A DNA stretch of 64,000 nt from an uncultured Flavobacteriales bacterium (GTDB lineage: Bacteria > Bacteroidota > Bacteroidia > Flavobacteriales_G > Salibacteraceae), in the NCBI GenBank assembly GCA_937899835.1, contig CALCCE010000151.1:1-64000 (forward strand), in the 5' to 3' direction. The position numbers and the translations under genes were made by a program. This document shows positions 1,870 to 24,973 of the stretch, in pieces (within the stretch, counting starts at the first letter, position 1; every line of letters begins with the position of its first letter). The notes beneath the pieces were generated by a model. It made no database searches. It saw nothing but the letters and a program-made list of their open reading frames with translations, and was not told the DNA's origin.

Positions 1870-4800
1870 TTAGCGGAGTTGATTTTTTAATTCGCGCAGT
1901 TCGATGTCGAGTGCTGCTGCAGTCACGGCTTTGTTGCGTTTCACGATGCGGTGATAAGCCACCTTCAATCCATTCACCAAGGTGAGCACCGAAGGCAGGA
2001 AAAACAAGGTGAGTACCATGCCGAAAATGAGCCCATAAGAAATGGCAATGGCCGTCGGTTTGAGAAACTGGGCGCTAATGGAGTTGTTGAGCAGCAGAGG
2101 CGCCAGGCCAAACACCGTGGTGATGGTAGTGAGCACAATGGGTCGGAACCGCGAAATGGCAGCTTCACGCAGGCTTTCGGCCGAGCTTTTACCCTCCTTG
2201 ATCTTGTCGTTGTAAGTGGAGATCAACACCAATCCATTGTTGATTAAAATGCCCCAAAGGGCAATCATGCCCAACACAGAAAAGATGCTTACCGGAATGC
2301 CGTGCAAAAACGAACCCCAGGCTACGCCCACAAAGGCAAAAGGCAACATGGCCAAAATGGTGATGGTTTTTCCAATCGATCGGTAATTGAGCAACAACAC
2401 GGTGATGATGAGCAGGAACACTACGTTGGTGGGGCCCTGGCTGCTGCTCTGGGTTTCTGCCGAAAGGCGGGCCTCGCCTTCCAGGGTGTAGCGCAAGTTG
2501 GGGTAAGCCTCCCGGATGTCTTTTAAAATACTGGCCTCGGTTTCGGCCAACACCGCAGGCACTGATACCAGCAGGTTTTCCACATCGGCTTCTACCCGGA
2601 TTTCGCGTATTCCGTTTTGGTGTTGGATACTTCGAGGGCCTTCCGCCTGCTGGAAGGTAGCCAGTTCACCAATCGGATAGCTGGCTCCGTTTGGCAATTG
2701 CAAACGGGCGTTTTTAAGGTTTTCCAGGCTTTGGCGATCGCTGCTATCGTAGCGCAGCCAAACCTTCACCTCCTCGTCTCCGCGTTGCAGGTTTTGCGCC
2801 TCCAAGCCAAAAAATCCTTTTCGAATTTGATTGAAGACCATTCCTTCGGACAGGCCCAGAAAGCGCGCCTTAGCCGTTAGCTCCATTTGCAGCTCAGGCA
2901 TGCCCTGTTGGTCCGTATCCGTTACGTCTTTCAAGTCCGTACGCTCTTGCAGGTAGGCCCGCAACATGGCTTTGGCGCCCCGTAAACTTTCCAGGTCGTG
3001 GCCCAATAAGGCAACGGAAACCGGCTTGCCAAACACCGCAATACTTCCGTAAGAAAGGTTAGTCGCCTCAGGAATCGGGCCCACCGTTTCTCGGATTTTG
3101 CTGGCAATGTCAAACGACTTGATGTTCCGGTTGTCGCCCTCCATCAGGTAAATGTTCAGGTAGCCCTCATCGCTGTTGGGCCCCAACACCCGTTCCACAT
3201 AGTTCACCACCGGTCGTTCATCTTCCCGCTGCTGGGTGTAGTGCTCGTTCACCTGCCATACCGCATCCTCCATTTTTTCGAGGTAGTCTTCGGTGATGCT
3301 TTCGTCAGTGCCCAAAGGGAGCGACAGTTTAGCCGTAATCACATCCTGGTCGATGGTAGGGAAGAACGTGCCCTTGATAATACCCGACCCCATGGCCCAA
3401 CCTGTGCCCATCATAATGACCAACACGCCGATTGGAGCCACCCAGGGCCTGCGCAAAAAGAAGCCGATGCTACGGGCGTAAACCCGATCCCGCAAATACA
3501 GCAACGATTGGTTAGTTTTTTGGGTGAGCTTCCAGGGCTTGTCGTTTTTTTGAAGTGCTTTGGACCGTGCGATGTGAATGGGCAAAAACAGCACACTTTC
3601 GATGAGTGCGACAAACAAGGTGGCACACACCACAAAAGAGATGTCAGAAAAGTAATCGCCCAATTGCCCATCGAGAAAAAAGAACAGGGAAAAAGCGAGT
3701 GCGGTGGTGGCCAAAGAAGCCAAGATGGCCGGTATCACTTCGATCGTGCCGCGCACCGCAGCTTGGAGCGGGCTGAGCCCTTCTATGAATTTCTGGTAAA
3801 TGTTTTCGGCCACTACTACACCGTCGTCCACAATTACGCCCAACACGATGATGGTGCCAAACAGCGACACCTGGTTGATGGTGAGGTCGTAAAAAGCCGA
3901 CAGCACAAACATGCCAAGCAGGGCTACCGGAATTTTAAAAGCCACCCAAAAAGCTACCCTGGGGTGTAAAAACAAGCCCAATACGATGAGCACCAGCAAT
4001 ATGCCTTGCCAGGCATTGGTTTGCAAAGTGCCGATGGCCTCTCGAAGCGAAATGCTTTTGTCTTCAATGATGTTGGCGGTAACACTGGCGTTGCTAGCGT
4101 TGAAACCGTCCAGAAATTCGGCCACGTAGCGGGCATTTTCCAAAATATCTTCTTCCGAGCGGCTAAACACCTTCAGTATCACCGCTTGTTGCCCGTTGAT
4201 GTAGGTTCGGTTGGGGCGGTTGGCGAAACGGTCTTCCACCGTGGCAATGTCTTTCAATCGAACCACCTTGCCATCGGGCCGGGCTTTTACCACGAGGTCC
4301 ATCAAGCCTTTGGCGGTGTAGGCGCGGTGGTCAAGGCGCAGTAAGATGTTTTCACGACCAGTTTCCAATTTGCCGCCCGAGGCCTTCAGGTTTTCCGATT
4401 GAATCGCCTGGCTCACTTCGTCAAAAGTCAATCCATAGGCCCGCAGGCTGTTCTCTTTGAACCGAACTTCGATTTCTTCTTCGGGATAACCAGAGACAAA
4501 AATCTGGGACAGTTTTGGCGAAAGCAGCAACTGATCCTTGAGGTTTTTGGCGTGATCTTTCAATCCCTTCAAAGAGGTATTGCCCACCAGACCAACCGTC
4601 ATGGTATAATTCACCACTTCGCGTTTGGCCACCACCGGAGTTTCTACCGCTGGCGGAAACGTGTTGATTTTGTCCACCGCATTGTTGACATCCTGCAGCA
4701 CCTTGTTGGCATCAGCAGCATCCAACAATTCTACCTGGATGGCCGCAAAATTTTCAGCAGCAGTGGAGGTAATGCGGTCAATGCCTTTCAGGCCTTTCAG

Positions 4801-20065: not shown

Positions 20066-20986
20066 TTAGGCAATCTGCTTTACCGTTCCACCGTGCGTTA
20101 CCTTGCTCACTTCCGAACGAATTACCTGGACCAATGCATCGGTTTGTTCCTTTTTCACAAAAGGGCGATACACCATCATACTGATCTGCCGTAAGGGTTC
20201 AGGAGCAATGAAGGGCCGGGTTTTGCTTTGCCGGTATTTGCTCATGATGTTCACGTAGAGTTCGGGCAGCAGTGTATAGCCTCCAAAATCATCTACGAGG
20301 CCCACCAAGGTAGCGAAGGAGTTGCACTGCATTTCCAAACCGTCCAACTTGCACGATTGGTCGTCGAGCCCGCAAAGGGCAATCACCTGATCTTTCAAGC
20401 AATGGCCTTCTTCTAAAAGCCAAACGGTGCTTTGCTTCACCTCTTGAAAGCTCATGAGCTTTTTGGTTTTGTCTTTTACACCGTATACTTTGAGGGCTTC
20501 GGTATACAGTTCGTATTCGTGCATGTCCGTTTCTTCCACCGGAGTGGCCAAAATCGCTCCATCAATTTGGTCGGCTTCCAGATCAGAAAGGAGTTGATCG
20601 GTGGTAGCTTCCTTAATCTTGAGTTTGATATCGGGATACTTCTTTACAAAGGGTTTGATGATGATCGGCAGCAGCAAAGGCGCCACTGTGGGAATCACTC
20701 CAATGCGCAACGTGCCCGATAACCTGCCCTCCAACGACGACTTCAGGTGTTTCAACTGTTGCGCCTTGGCCATAATGTCCCGGGCGTTTTTGATGACTTG
20801 TTCTCCATGAGAGGTAAGTAAGATGGGGCTGCGACTGCGGTCGAAGATCATGATGTCGAGTTCTTCTTCCAGCTTTTTGATCATGGCACTCAGAGTGGCC
20901 TGACTCACAAAACACTGCTCCGCAGCTTTGCCAAAATGGCCTTGCTCGTGCACAGCAAGGATATATTCGAGTTGTCTAAAATTCAT
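20066..20986 (-). CDS. oxyR: OxyR, LysR-type peroxide-sensing regulator
   Basis: A 306-residue LysR-type regulator. The N-terminal helix-turn-helix (FRQLEYILAVHEQGHFGKAA ... SQATLSAMIKKLEEEL) precedes a ligand-type domain with GHCLKDQVIALC at 194-205: Cys196 and Cys205 have exactly the nine-residue spacing of Cys199 and Cys208 in E. coli OxyR, the disulfide pair oxidised by peroxide. It ends with a short FGGYTLLPE element, also OxyR-like. A perfect OxyR half-box touches its start, so it probably controls itself and the divergent operon. Confidence 0.92.
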   Translation of the reverse strand: MNFRQLEYILAVHEQGHFGKAAEQCFVSQATLSAMIKKLEEELDIMIFDRSRSPILLTSHGEQVIKNARDIMAKAQQLKHLKSSLEGRLSGTLRIGVIPTVAPLLLPIIIKPFVKKYPDIKLKIKEATTDQLLSDLEADQIDGAILATPVEETDMHEYELYTEALKVYGVKDKTKKLMSFQEVKQSTVWLLEEGHCLKDQVIALCGLDDQSCKLDGLEMQCNSFATLVGLVDDFGGYTLLPELYVNIMSKYRQSKTRPFIAPEPLRQISMMVYRPFVKKEQTDALVQVIRSEVSKVTHGGTVKQIA

Positions 20987-20987
20987 G

Positions 20988-21002
20988 ATAGATATTATCT
21001 AT
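20988..21002. promoter_or_regulatory. OxyR-type binding site between oxyR and the divergent operon
   Basis: ATAGATATTATCTAT fits the E. coli OxyR half-operator ATAGnTnnnAnCTAT at every fixed position, within a 17-bp perfect palindrome (20987-21003). After a seven-base spacer a weaker second half follows (21010-21024). The site abuts the oxyR start and lies about 60 bases upstream of the expected transcription start of the rightward operon, the normal activator position. Confidence 0.75.
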
Positions 21003-21046
21003 CGAAAGTATCTAATTTTTCGATAGAATCGAATTGACTTGTTGGG

Positions 21047-21054
21047 TAGTTTTG
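21047..21054 (+). promoter_or_regulatory. -7 element of the OxyR-linked operon
   Basis: TAGTTTTG matches TAnnTTTG. There is no TTG at -33, as expected for an activator-dependent promoter; the second OxyR half-box would end near -37. The first gene starts at 21101. Confidence 0.5.
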
Positions 21055-21100
21055 TAAGGTGATCGACAATAGGTGTGCTCCTTCTCCAATAAAGCACCGA

Positions 21101-21388
21101 ATGAAACTCATAACAAAAAAGTCGTTCGACCCACCCATAAGTTCCATTTCAGAAATGGTCTTCGGACTGCGAACCGATCGTAATCAACCGGCCGATTACC
21201 TGACCTTCAACATCGATTTTGAACTGGGCGTAACCGTTGGCCCTGCTGGTTGGGACCTGGAAGAAGCGAAGTCAGTACCGGGTACCCTGGAGGTCTCAAA
21301 ACACCATTTCCCGGTTTATGAAATACCAAGCTTACCACTAACGGATACGGGCATAGAACATATGGCTTTCACGGAGAGAAAAGAATAG
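21101..21388 (+). CDS. Small unknown protein, first gene of the OxyR-linked operon
   Basis: A 95-residue product starting at the ATG at 21101, chosen over a GTG at 21059 because the promoter element at 21047-21054 would place transcription after that GTG. It has no signal peptide or membrane segment, no cysteine, and reads as a small beta-rich domain (YLTFNIDFELGVTVG). I do not recognise it. It is followed after 48 bases by the DUF6952 gene. Confidence 0.55.
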   Translation: MKLITKKSFDPPISSISEMVFGLRTDRNQPADYLTFNIDFELGVTVGPAGWDLEEAKSVPGTLEVSKHHFPVYEIPSLPLTDTGIEHMAFTERKE

Positions 21389-21436
21389 GAAAGCCATAGC
21401 ATGGGCCGCCTGATGTTCGACTAAAACAATCTGAAA

Positions 21437-21700
21437 ATGAGACTACCCTTGATAAAGCGATTGACCCAATTCACCAAGGAACGTGATGAGGATTTTTTGC
21501 TGGAAACCATAGAAACTTTAGAGCATTTGGCCATGGGCGAAGTGCTCAAAGAAGAAGAACTTGAAGTGGTTGGAGAACTGCTCAGCAACCTCTACGGAGC
21601 CGTGGAGGTAACCAAGGACATTCAAAGTGGCACCCCGGACCGTGACGCCCTCAACGGTTTCATGCAACGGGTAATGGGTTCCATTGCTCCGGCTACTTGA
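21437..21700 (+). CDS. DUF6952 family protein
   Basis: An 87-residue helical protein (LPLIKRLTQFTKERDEDFLL, LEVVGELLSNLYGAVEV, LNGFMQRVMGSI) matching my memory of DUF6952. In many Bacteroidota that family sits beside a peroxiredoxin and a thioredoxin-like gene; here neither is present. It is the second gene of the operon facing oxyR, with 52 bases to the flavoprotein gene. The biochemical role is unknown. Confidence 0.75.
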   Translation: MRLPLIKRLTQFTKERDEDFLLETIETLEHLAMGEVLKEEELEVVGELLSNLYGAVEVTKDIQSGTPDRDALNGFMQRVMGSIAPAT

Positions 21701-21752
21701 TTGCCATTCTTTCACCGGCAGGTGATGAATACCAAAATTCAAACGAAACAAA

Positions 21753-23507
21753 ATGAACGCTGTAAGACATAAAACCAATATATCTAATGTACTCGTCATC
21801 GGCAGTGGTGGTGCTGGCCTTCGGGCTGCGATCGAAGCCAAACTGTCTGGTGTGGAGGTAACGGTGATTGGCAAAAGGAAAAAAGAAGATGTACACACGG
21901 TGCTGGCGGCTGGCGGCATCAATGCTTCTTTTGGTAATGTAGATCCAAAAGATTCCTGGCAACAGCACTTTGCCGACACTATGATCGAAGGCTACCACTT
22001 GTCGGAACCTAAGATGGTGGAGCTCATGGCCAAAGAAGCACCTGGTTTGGTAGAGGAGATCGACCAATGGGGAGCTAATTTCGCCAAACTGGAAAACGGA
22101 AAGATCGACCAACGCTATTTTGGAGCACACACCTACCGCAGAACCTGTTATTCAGGAGACTATACGGGACGTTCGATCTTAAAAGCCTTGATCAAAAAGG
22201 CCAAAGAGCTCAAAATACCCATTTACGATTCGCAATACGTTACTGAGCTGCTGGTGCACAACAACCTCTGCTTTGGTGCGATGGCGTTTGACATCAACAA
22301 CGGGGAACGCACGGTTTTCTTAGCAGATTCTACCATTTTGGCCGCTGGTGGCCATACGCGCATTTGGAGAAAAAGCTCCTCCCGGAGAAATGAAAATTCT
22401 GGCGATGCTTTTTACCTCGGATTGAAAGCCGGTTGCAAGTTGAAAGACATGGAGCTGGTGCAGTTTCACCCTACCGGAATGGTGGTGCCCGAAGAGATTG
22501 CCGGCACACTGGTGACGGAAGCAGTGCGGGGCGAAGGTGGCCACCTCATCAATGGCAAAGGGGAACGCTACATGGCCAAATACGATGCCGATCGGATGGA
22601 GCTTTCTACCCGCGACCGGGTAGCCATGGCCAACTACCTGGAAATCGCCGAAGGAAGAGGTTCCAAAAATGGCGGAGTTTACCTCGACATCAGCCATAAA
22701 TCCAAAGAATTCATCATTCAGAAACTACCTCGGATGTACCGGCAGTTTCTCGATACTCTGATGCTCGACATTTCCAAGGAACCGATGGAGGTGGCCCCTA
22801 CGGCCCATTATTCCATGGGCGGTATCGAAGTTGACCCCGAAACGCACAACACCGGAGTGGAAGGGCTATTTGCCGCAGGTGAGTGTACCGGAGGTTTGCA
22901 CGGGGCCAACCGCCTGGGCGGAAACTCCCTGGCCGAAATCCTGATTTTCGGCAAAAGGGCGGGGCATCATGCCTCTCAGCGCTCGCTTTCACTGGACATT
23001 CAATACCGTTCCAAACAAGTTATCCGCGAAGCGCACGCCAACATCGATCGATTCCTGAAGCACGGCGATCAGGTAGCCCGCCCGCTGCAACGGGAGCTGC
23101 GCAACATCATGTGGGAGCATTGTGGTGTAGTGCGCACCGAAGACAAATTAGAAGAAGGCTTGCGCAGAATTGAAAAACTGAAAATATCGGTCAAACTGCT
23201 GGATGTGCGTCCCGACAGTGAAGGCTTTGAAGACCTGATGTTGGCTTTTGACTTGGAAGGGGCCATTATGGCTGCAGAGGCAACTATTTTGGGTGCCAAA
23301 GCCCGGAAAGAAAGCCGGGGAGCCCACCAGCGGGCCGACTACATCGATACCCATAAGGAACACGAGGTGAACTACACCATCCGCTTGGAAGCCAACCGAA
23401 AGTTGGTGCTGGGCAAAGAAAAATTGAAGCCGCTGACCGATGAACTACGCAGCCTGGTAGACGATACCGACGAAATCACCGATTTCGAAGGAATGCTGTT
23501 GGAATAA
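21753..23507 (+). CDS. Fumarate reductase/succinate dehydrogenase-type flavoprotein, standalone
   Basis: A 584-residue FAD enzyme. The dinucleotide motif VIGSGGAGLRAA (about 15-27) is followed by DVHTVLAAGGINA, where His48 matches the covalent-FAD His of SdhA/FrdA rather than the Ser/Tyr of L-aspartate oxidase. QFHPTG (near 235), VRGEGGHL, HYSMGG (near 351), GANRLGGNSL (near 385) and the C-terminal RGAHQRADY complete the active site. Succinate/fumarate interconversion is expected, but no iron-sulfur or cytochrome subunit gene is adjacent. Third gene of the OxyR-linked operon, closed by a strong hairpin. Confidence 0.85.
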   Translation: MNAVRHKTNISNVLVIGSGGAGLRAAIEAKLSGVEVTVIGKRKKEDVHTVLAAGGINASFGNVDPKDSWQQHFADTMIEGYHLSEPKMVELMAKEAPGLVEEIDQWGANFAKLENGKIDQRYFGAHTYRRTCYSGDYTGRSILKALIKKAKELKIPIYDSQYVTELLVHNNLCFGAMAFDINNGERTVFLADSTILAAGGHTRIWRKSSSRRNENSGDAFYLGLKAGCKLKDMELVQFHPTGMVVPEEIAGTLVTEAVRGEGGHLINGKGERYMAKYDADRMELSTRDRVAMANYLEIAEGRGSKNGGVYLDISHKSKEFIIQKLPRMYRQFLDTLMLDISKEPMEVAPTAHYSMGGIEVDPETHNTGVEGLFAAGECTGGLHGANRLGGNSLAEILIFGKRAGHHASQRSLSLDIQYRSKQVIREAHANIDRFLKHGDQVARPLQRELRNIMWEHCGVVRTEDKLEEGLRRIEKLKISVKLLDVRPDSEGFEDLMLAFDLEGAIMAAEATILGAKARKESRGAHQRADYIDTHKEHEVNYTIRLEANRKLVLGKEKLKPLTDELRSLVDDTDEITDFEGMLLE

Positions 23508-23815
23508 GACCGGCAACTGCACCACCGATAGCGCCCCAAAGGTTTCATACGAATTACCGAGTATAATGATAAGGTTAAACGCTATCCCAACAACGACTAC
23601 CTCCGCTCATGAGTAGTCGACCCTTGCATCTAATCTACCGCCTCCACGAGCCAACCGGCTCGTGGAGGCATTTGAATTAACCGCAGTCCATTCAGCAACC
23701 TGGAGATGTTGCACTCTTAGGTTGTTTGTAAAAGGGGAAACCTGTCCCAATTCCCCATAATTGTCGAAAATGGCCTGCCTGCATCAGTTCATACTGATCC
23801 AAATACGCTTAGGTT
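23508..23815. other. Intergenic region with a terminator
   Basis: A gap of 308 bases between the flavoprotein and the acyl-CoA dehydrogenase-like gene. It holds the hairpin at 23640-23669; I see no gene. The downstream gene must have its own promoter here, but no perfect TAnnTTTG is visible. Confidence 0.5.
23640..23669 (+). terminator. 13-bp perfect hairpin ending the OxyR-linked operon
   Basis: GCCTCCACGAGCC (23640-23652), loop AACC, GGCTCGTGGAGGC (23657-23669), followed by ATTTGAATT. The stem is very stable, but the T-run is weak. It could also serve the opposite strand. Confidence 0.7.
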
Positions 23816-24973
23816 TTGACAGATTACTTCAATATAAAATCCTATTTCAACGACGAACAGATCCTCATCCAGAGTACCATCCGGGATTGGGTCGATCAAC
23901 GCATTAAGCCCGAAGTAGGAAAATATTACCAAGAGGGAAAACCCTTTCCCAACCTGGCCAGTCAACTGGCCGAAATCGGAGCTTTTGGCCTCATCATCCC
24001 TGAGGAATACGGCGGCCTTGGCATGGATTACCTCTCTTATGGTTTGCTCATGCAAGAATTGGAGCGTGCAGATACTTCGCTGCGGGTGATGAGTTCGATA
24101 CAAACCTCCCTGGTGATGTATGCCATTCACCGTTATGGTTCGGAGGAGCAGAAGCAGCGCTACCTGCCCAAGTTGGCCAGTGGAGAACTCCTCGGAGCTT
24201 TTGGCCTCACCGAACCCGATTTTGGGTCCAATACAGCGGCCATGCATTGCCACTACAAGGAAGAGGGCGACAACATCGTGATCAATGGCAGTAAAATGTG
24301 GATCGGCAACTCTTCAGAATGTGACGTAGCCCTGCTGTGGGCGCGAGGGCCCGAAGGCAAGGTAAAGGGAGTGATTGTTGACAAAACTTTGATCACCAAT
24401 TTCGGTACACACGTTTTTAAAGACAAAATGTCGTTCAAGTCCTCCATTACCGGGGAATTGGTTTTTGACGAATCGGTGTTGCCTCAAACCCAGATCTTAG
24501 AAAAGACCAACGGGGTAAAAAATGCCTACGATTGCTTGAATGTGGGCCGGTATGCCGTAGCCTGGGGCTGCGTAGGGATTGCCATGGATTGCTACGAAAC
24601 TGCTTTGCAATACTCCAAAGAGCGCATTCAGTTTGGCAAGCCCATCGGCACCAAGCAATTGGTGCAAAAAAAGTTGGCCGAAATGATTACCGAAATCACC
24701 AAGGCCCAACTCGTTTGCTACCAATTGAGCGTTTTGATGGACAAAGGCATCGCCAACTACGCGCAAATCTCCATGGCTAAAAGAAACAACGTATCCATGG
24801 CGCGCTTTGTAGCCAGCGAAGCACGGCAGGTCTTGGGCGGCATGGGCATTTCTGCCGAATACCCGATTATGCGGCACCTCATGAACCTCGAAACCTTGAT
24901 CACCTATCAAGGCACCCACGAAATTCACTTGCTCATCACCGGCCGGGACATCACCGGCCTCGATGCGATTTAA
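23816..24973 (+). CDS. Glutaryl-CoA dehydrogenase-like acyl-CoA dehydrogenase lacking the catalytic Glu
   Basis: A 385-residue acyl-CoA dehydrogenase fold, nearest by eye to glutaryl-CoA dehydrogenase (GCDH): ELLGAFGLTEPDFGS, QYSKERIQFGKPIG, LVQKKLAEMITEIT, RQVLGGMGIS and TGRDITGLDAI match. The GCDH substrate-binding Arg is kept (R90 in LRVMSS). However, the catalytic base in TYEGTH is Gln365 here (TYQGTHEIH; codon CAA at 24908-24910), and the alternative Glu site of isovaleryl-CoA dehydrogenase is Gly244. The enzyme may be inactive or do other chemistry. The start is TTG; an in-frame TAG lies two codons upstream. Confidence 0.85.
   Translation: MTDYFNIKSYFNDEQILIQSTIRDWVDQRIKPEVGKYYQEGKPFPNLASQLAEIGAFGLIIPEEYGGLGMDYLSYGLLMQELERADTSLRVMSSIQTSLVMYAIHRYGSEEQKQRYLPKLASGELLGAFGLTEPDFGSNTAAMHCHYKEEGDNIVINGSKMWIGNSSECDVALLWARGPEGKVKGVIVDKTLITNFGTHVFKDKMSFKSSITGELVFDESVLPQTQILEKTNGVKNAYDCLNVGRYAVAWGCVGIAMDCYETALQYSKERIQFGKPIGTKQLVQKKLAEMITEITKAQLVCYQLSVLMDKGIANYAQISMAKRNNVSMARFVASEARQVLGGMGISAEYPIMRHLMNLETLITYQGTHEIHLLITGRDITGLDAI

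Follow-up and report, generated by a model that had tools for sequence, protein, structure and literature searches.

Why should a flavoprotein of the SdhA/FrdA type, encoded with neither an iron-sulphur nor a membrane subunit, stand at the end of an operon that faces the gene for the peroxide sensor OxyR? The question is raised by a 64,000-nucleotide (nt) stretch of DNA from an uncultured Flavobacteriales bacterium of the Salibacteraceae (assembly GCA_937899835.1, contig CALCCE010000151.1), referred to here as the window. In it oxyR (positions 20066-20986, minus strand) faces three genes, namely a 95-amino-acid (aa) open reading frame (ORF), the gene of a DUF6952 protein and that of a flavoprotein of 584 aa. 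Our favoured answer, held with about balanced confidence, is that this is a rebuilt OxyR target operon that would produce a cluster-free dicarboxylate flavoenzyme in response to peroxide.

The oxyR gene and its divergent promoter

The regulator is a 306-aa protein of the LysR family. Its best NCBIfam match is OxyR, at 205 bits and under the equivalog cut-off of 329. It has the LysR fold, and the sensing pair Cys196/Cys205, named in an earlier interpretation made from the window alone (the sequence-only reading), is present in GHCLKDQVIALC. The GHC-x8-C motif of this pair occurs in every OxyR homologue that we inspected in the class, and an OxyR box lies beside the gene.

The box, the palindrome ATAGATATTATCTAT, occupies positions 20988-21002, 2 nt away from the ATG of oxyR, and is shared with the divergent promoter. 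As had been claimed, it equals the pattern at each fixed base. One match with at most one mismatch is expected by chance in the 64-kb window alone (mean 0.75), and it is the position of this box that gives it evidential weight, not its mere occurrence. Exact sites are so rare in the 6.9-Mb genome (four, compared with nine per strand for a reversed control pattern) that chance does not explain one placed 2 nt from the start of oxyR. A promoter element of the TAnnTTTG (-7) type, TAGTTTTG (21047-21054, plus strand), begins 44 nt past the box, at a distance of 61 nt from the first codon of oxyR. Its distance from the box had been considered suited to activation, and the -7 spacing recurs at oxyR loci throughout the class.

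We compared 31 oxyR loci (the window, 29 relatives from the class and the second oxyR of the host genome), using composition-preserving shuffles as a control for the counts. Allowing one mismatch, 14 of the 31 loci have a box no farther than about 25 nt from the oxyR start, against 0.69 in the shuffles, and six have an exact one there (0.01 in the shuffles). At ten loci TAnnTTTG reads away from oxyR and starts 55-72 nt from its ATG (0.36 in the shuffles). The start falls at 61 nt in the window, at 63 where a peroxiredoxin gene faces oxyR (L161), at 65 before a Dps gene (L184), and at 65 and 66 before two catalase genes (L164 and L162).

We read which gene occupies the divergent slot at these loci and at five more. 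At 19 loci the gene facing oxyR is confirmed by Pfam as a catalase, a KatG-type peroxidase, an AhpC-type peroxiredoxin or a Dps-type ferritin, and one further gene is an AhpD-like carboxymuconolactone decarboxylase, again by Pfam. A minority of slots hold unrelated genes, such as a tRNA nucleotidyltransferase-like gene and an oxidoreductase. The comparison thus marks the box as something that oxyR genes of the class generally carry, whatever their neighbour. It belongs to oxyR itself and therefore, taken alone, says nothing about the flavoprotein. OxyR control of the window operon, as the sequence-only reading supposed, is likely because the box, the -7 spacing and the divergent slot in combination match peroxide-defence loci class-wide, and induction of the operon by peroxide is likely on the same sequence grounds.

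The second OxyR paralogue of the host genome (contig 237; positions 5156-6088 of L234) is 38% identical to the first and has the Cys pair. No recognisable box is present at its start and no peroxide gene faces it.

A clade of lone flavoproteins

The flavoprotein gene (21753-23507, plus strand; PF00890 and PF02910) is the last of the operon. In a maximum-likelihood tree the lone flavoproteins form their own group, with support of 100/97 for 40 rows and 99/97 for 41, distinct both from NadB and from the flavoproteins of complex II. The group joins NadB at 97/87; long branches are involved and the join is a weak basis for kinship.

For SdhA, FrdA and NadB the residue numbers are those of the E. 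coli proteins, and residue roles are as generally accepted. The histidine that binds flavin adenine dinucleotide (FAD) covalently, His48 in the window protein, is present in 38 of 38 readable rows of the clade, and the dicarboxylate-site residues (H239, T255, E256, R259, R287, H352 and R387) are all kept. The position of SdhA Gln50 and FrdA Glu49 is occupied by A53 in the window protein and by Ala in 37 of the 38 rows from the clade, whereas all 11 complex II rows, and also the NadB rows, have Gln. At the NadB Glu121 position the clade has Phe, as does SdhA. Arg211, Glu346 and Gly390 are further marks of the clade. All 39 clade members end in Glu (Glu584; window 23499-23504) following a hydrophobic residue (LLE, LVE, LIE, HLE, QLE), in a tail that is otherwise variable; such an ending was found in 1 of 23 comparison proteins. 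Tree, residues and lone gene context together define, at the level of sequence, a clade that spans several major bacterial phyla. Residue alignment and tree also confirm the covalent-FAD His that had been noticed on a partnerless flavoprotein of fumarate/succinate type.

The structure model of the flavoprotein has a predicted local distance difference test score (pLDDT) of 86 and a predicted template modelling score (pTM) of 0.90. Its best structural matches are complex II flavoproteins, namely M. smegmatis Sdh1 SdhA (7d6v; template modelling (TM) score 0.87, 39% identity) and E. coli FrdA (1kf6; TM 0.88-0.89).

Comparison with known SdhA homologues

With complex II SdhA/FrdA the window protein shares the fold (TM 0.87-0.89), the FAD and capping domains, the covalent-FAD His and the dicarboxylate site. 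It differs in having no iron-sulphur or membrane-anchor partner, in the Ala that replaces the Gln/Glu following the covalent His, and in its clade-specific residues and C-terminal tail; identity is 31-39%. The best NCBIfam model is TfrA, the flavoprotein of thiol:fumarate reductase, at 556 bits, which falls short of the cut-off of 718 and so does not make the protein a TfrA. No TfrB was seen in the flavoprotein neighbourhoods, in which no search with TfrB's own model was made.

Soluble SdhA homologues lacking partner subunits are an accepted kind of protein (PMC10238741). Shewanella flavocytochrome c3 and yeast Osm1/Frd1 resemble the window protein in acting without complex II, and flavocytochrome c3 has the motifs LAAGG(I/M)NAA and RLGGN in common with the clade. 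However, FAD is non-covalent in these proteins, and flavocytochrome c3 has Asn at the His position and a haem domain; the window sequence is overall nearer to SdhA.

NadB is likewise a lone SdhA homologue and is the sister group in the tree, but it has no covalent His, its Glu121 is absent from the clade, and the clade is not tied to NadA. The window protein scores 365 bits with TIGR00551, for which the cut-off is 452.75, and no NadB above that cut-off is present in the host genome. A role as NadB substitute in NAD synthesis was rejected, as NadA is missing from the host genome, from genome G445 and from five Actinomarina carriers, and Glu121 is absent. Most of the flavoprotein carriers that have NadA also hold a separate NadB-type protein.

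The DUF6952 protein and the 95-aa ORF

The operon begins with the 95-aa ORF (21101-21388, plus strand), followed after 48 nt by the DUF6952 gene (21437-21700, plus strand) and after a further 52 nt by the flavoprotein gene. An intrinsic-terminator-like hairpin of 13 base pairs, ten of them G-C, lies at 23640-23669 (plus strand) and ends the operon. No second TAnnTTTG element was found ahead of the DUF6952 or flavoprotein gene. The gene coordinates and the divergent order were re-checked and are correct. Peroxiredoxin (Prx), thioredoxin (Trx), SdhB and SdhC are absent, as had been stated, and this holds for the operon; elsewhere in the host genome an SdhC-SdhA-SdhB set lies on contig 39 (L072), and a Trx-DUF6952 pair faces a peroxiredoxin gene on contig 95 (L071, 5693-7053).

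The DUF6952 protein matches PF22264 at 72.7 bits (cut-off 27). It is modelled confidently as four helices (pLDDT 91), for which a fold search gave no PDB match better than E = 1, and the family had no match in the literature searched. In 29 of 30 sampled loci of the class the DUF6952 gene lies immediately behind a thioredoxin gene, so the product is probably a thioredoxin-linked protein. The family splits into two subfamilies. That of the window is found as prx-trx-DUF6952, and in two genomes (G140 and G019) this operon faces oxyR and includes DUF6952 proteins 52% and 61% identical to that of the window. The pair on contig 95 is of the other type. One locus (L236, genome G004; 3187-4045) has a tandem thioredoxin-DUF6952-DUF6952 arrangement with one copy of each subfamily.

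Bacteroidota operons that face oxyR (prx-trx-DUF6952, katG, catalase, dps) share the regulator, the box, the -7 spacing and DUF6952 with the window, which differs in having an orphan ORF and the flavoprotein in place of the enzyme genes. Because the loci of G140 and G019 carry DUF6952 of the window type, the operon of the window is most simply read as a former prx-trx-DUF6952 operon that has lost prx and trx, whose place the 95-aa ORF now takes.

No homologue of the 95-aa ORF was found in 60 relatives or 395 genomes of the phylum; it has no match in Pfam, NCBIfam or PHROG and no convincing match in the PDB. Neither it nor the DUF6952 protein contains a cysteine. Both are poor candidates for an electron carrier, given the lack of Cys, the four-helix DUF6952 model without a PDB match and the absence of homologues of the ORF. 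The suggestion that one of them might be the redox partner of the flavoprotein is therefore unsupported.

Distribution and origin of the flavoprotein

No orthologue of the flavoprotein was detected at 1e-90 in 34 genomes of the same family. The closest copy, 80% identical, is from a marine metagenome-assembled genome (MAG; L076), and copies of 70-80% identity occur in marine MAGs and single-cell genomes labelled Flavobacteriaceae, Saprospiraceae, Marinimicrobia and Actinomarina. Misbinned contigs may have given some of these genomes a wrong label. The next copies are those of Chloroflexi, Rubrobacter and cyanobacteria (about 60-65%), then of actinomycetes (Lentzea, Kribbella, Arthrobacter; 51-54%). 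Absence from the family combined with 80% identity to a marine MAG copy suggests that the gene was probably acquired horizontally. The carriers appear to be mostly aerobic lineages, and the fact that the gene is kept in genomes of about 1 Mb points to a general role.

At the other loci whose neighbourhoods were read, the flavoprotein gene stands alone. In 80 related loci tblastn gave no match to SdhB, DUF6952 or the 95-aa ORF in its vicinity. All-against-all clustering of its neighbours returned nothing widely shared; the clusters were mostly ORFs antisense to the GC-rich gene itself and synteny within a genus. The sequence-only reading had called for a conserved trio beside oxyR. Queries with OxyR, DUF6952, the 95-aa ORF and the flavoprotein yielded no second case in 198 genomes of the class, 60 relatives, 395 genomes of the phylum and 80 genome contigs, and the idea of a conserved trio is not upheld.

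In Micrococcales a divergent gene for a LysR-type regulator lies directly ahead of the lone flavoprotein at eight loci (L124, L132, L136, L142, L147, L151, L154 and L155, at about 6.9-7.9 kb). Those tested have no Cys pair and were rejected as OxyR; their ligand could point to the substrate of the flavoprotein. In a Flavobacteriaceae MAG a gene that by eye resembles phosphosulfolactate synthase (ComA; L088, 7072-7917) directly precedes a 78%-identical flavoprotein. A Rubrobacteraceae genome (G608; L228 and L229) has three members of the clade or its near outgroup.

Proposed function and alternatives

From gene order, promoter architecture, clade and residues we infer induction, reaction and purpose as follows. 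The ancestral locus would likely have been oxyR facing prx-trx-DUF6952. Loss of prx and trx would have left DUF6952 in place with the orphan ORF, and a horizontally acquired SdhA/FrdA-like gene would have been added as the final gene. Peroxide would oxidise OxyR (Cys196-Cys205), which, bound at the box, would activate the promoter 44 nt away, so that the flavoprotein is co-produced with the peroxide response. With FAD covalently held on His48, it would most likely interconvert a C4-dicarboxylate pair of the succinate/fumarate type with no iron-sulphur or membrane subunit, exchanging electrons with a soluble partner for which free flavin, flavodoxin or O2 are candidates. The purpose may be to keep dicarboxylate chemistry running while peroxide and iron shortage disable cluster enzymes. 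There are precedents: the OxyR of E. coli switches on HemF, a cluster-free isozyme, in place of HemN, with iron scarcity given as the explanation (PMC9576991), and Osm1, a heme-less soluble fumarate reductase of yeast, uses fumarate to oxidise free flavins (PMC6242907). Of the peroxide-responsive soluble fumarate/succinate flavoenzyme first proposed, OxyR control and the partnerless protein with its covalent-FAD His are supported; the small-protein partner and the conserved trio are not.

Several observations weigh against this model. The box and the -7 match alone are no proof of activation. Conservation of the box in relatives, which the sequence-only reading expected, is found at oxyR genes (14 of 31), but OxyR-type boxes upstream of related flavoproteins occur at 3 of 80 loci, about the chance level. 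The flavoprotein has no link to OxyR elsewhere, so its general role may have nothing to do with peroxide. The supposed ancestral form rests on two oxyR loci outside the window's family, and those read inside the family face dps or katG, not prx. Finally, autoxidation of Frd is governed by its iron-sulphur subunit (PMC5210497), so that electrons might escape to O2 from a lone flavin, which would be odd in peroxide defence.

Since the flavoprotein shows no peroxide link elsewhere, a serious rival is that its gene landed behind DUF6952 by chance after transfer and is co-transcribed there with a function unrelated to peroxide. The random neighbours at the related loci inspected, the lack of an adjoining OxyR-type regulator, the chance level of upstream boxes and the restriction of the trio to one genome among those searched all agree with such a passenger. 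However, the gap of only 52 nt places the gene tightly within a slot reserved for peroxide genes, a clear terminator follows it and no TAnnTTTG element of its own precedes it. We regard this explanation as possible, though on balance doubtful.

The flavoprotein might instead be an oxidase like L-aspartate oxidase, with a dicarboxylate or an amino acid as electron donor and O2 as acceptor, and with OxyR control coping with the resulting H2O2. NadB is a lone homologue that uses O2 (PMC10238741). The sister position in the tree would fit, as would the mostly aerobic lineages presumed above, but the join has long branches, Phe replaces Glu121, the covalent-FAD His is present, and L-aspartate oxidase in NAD synthesis is at odds with the missing NadA. 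We consider an oxidase improbable.

Least of all do we expect a displaced flavoprotein of complex II or thiol:fumarate reductase with its iron-sulphur subunit encoded elsewhere, a very improbable reading despite the TfrA and Sdh1 matches, as the host genome already has SdhC-SdhA-SdhB, related loci across phyla have no adjacent SdhB match, and A53, R211, E346 and the C-terminal Glu set the protein apart.

Beyond the favoured model for the window, the clade as a whole could be a separate class of single-subunit, covalently flavinylated, cluster-free succinate/fumarate oxidoreductases in aerobic lineages that range from the streamlined marine Actinomarina to Streptomyces. The window member would then be placed under OxyR as a peroxide-proof stand-in for the cluster-dependent complex II, with a soluble partner perhaps docking on the invariant C-terminal tail. 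We put this forward as an unlikely extension. While soluble SdhA homologues are already known (NadB, flavocytochrome c3, Osm1), the clade and its placement in the OxyR slot appear to be new; no description of either was found in the literature searched, which includes few subscription journals. The placement, in a slot elsewhere held by catalase or peroxiredoxin, is a direct handle on the clade's function. If peroxide induces the flavoprotein, it becomes a candidate for taking over a cluster-dependent step without a cluster, as HemF does for HemN. The simple conserved promoter layout in Bacteroidota, in which the box lies at oxyR and TAnnTTTG some 63 nt from the start of that gene, may also aid prediction of OxyR targets in the phylum.

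Neighbouring genes

Both in the window (23816-24973) and in the marine MAG with the closest copy (L076, 6104-7270), the flavoprotein gene has as its neighbour a gene for a glutaryl-CoA-dehydrogenase-like acyl-CoA dehydrogenase. The two dehydrogenases are 66% identical, and their side and orientation differ.

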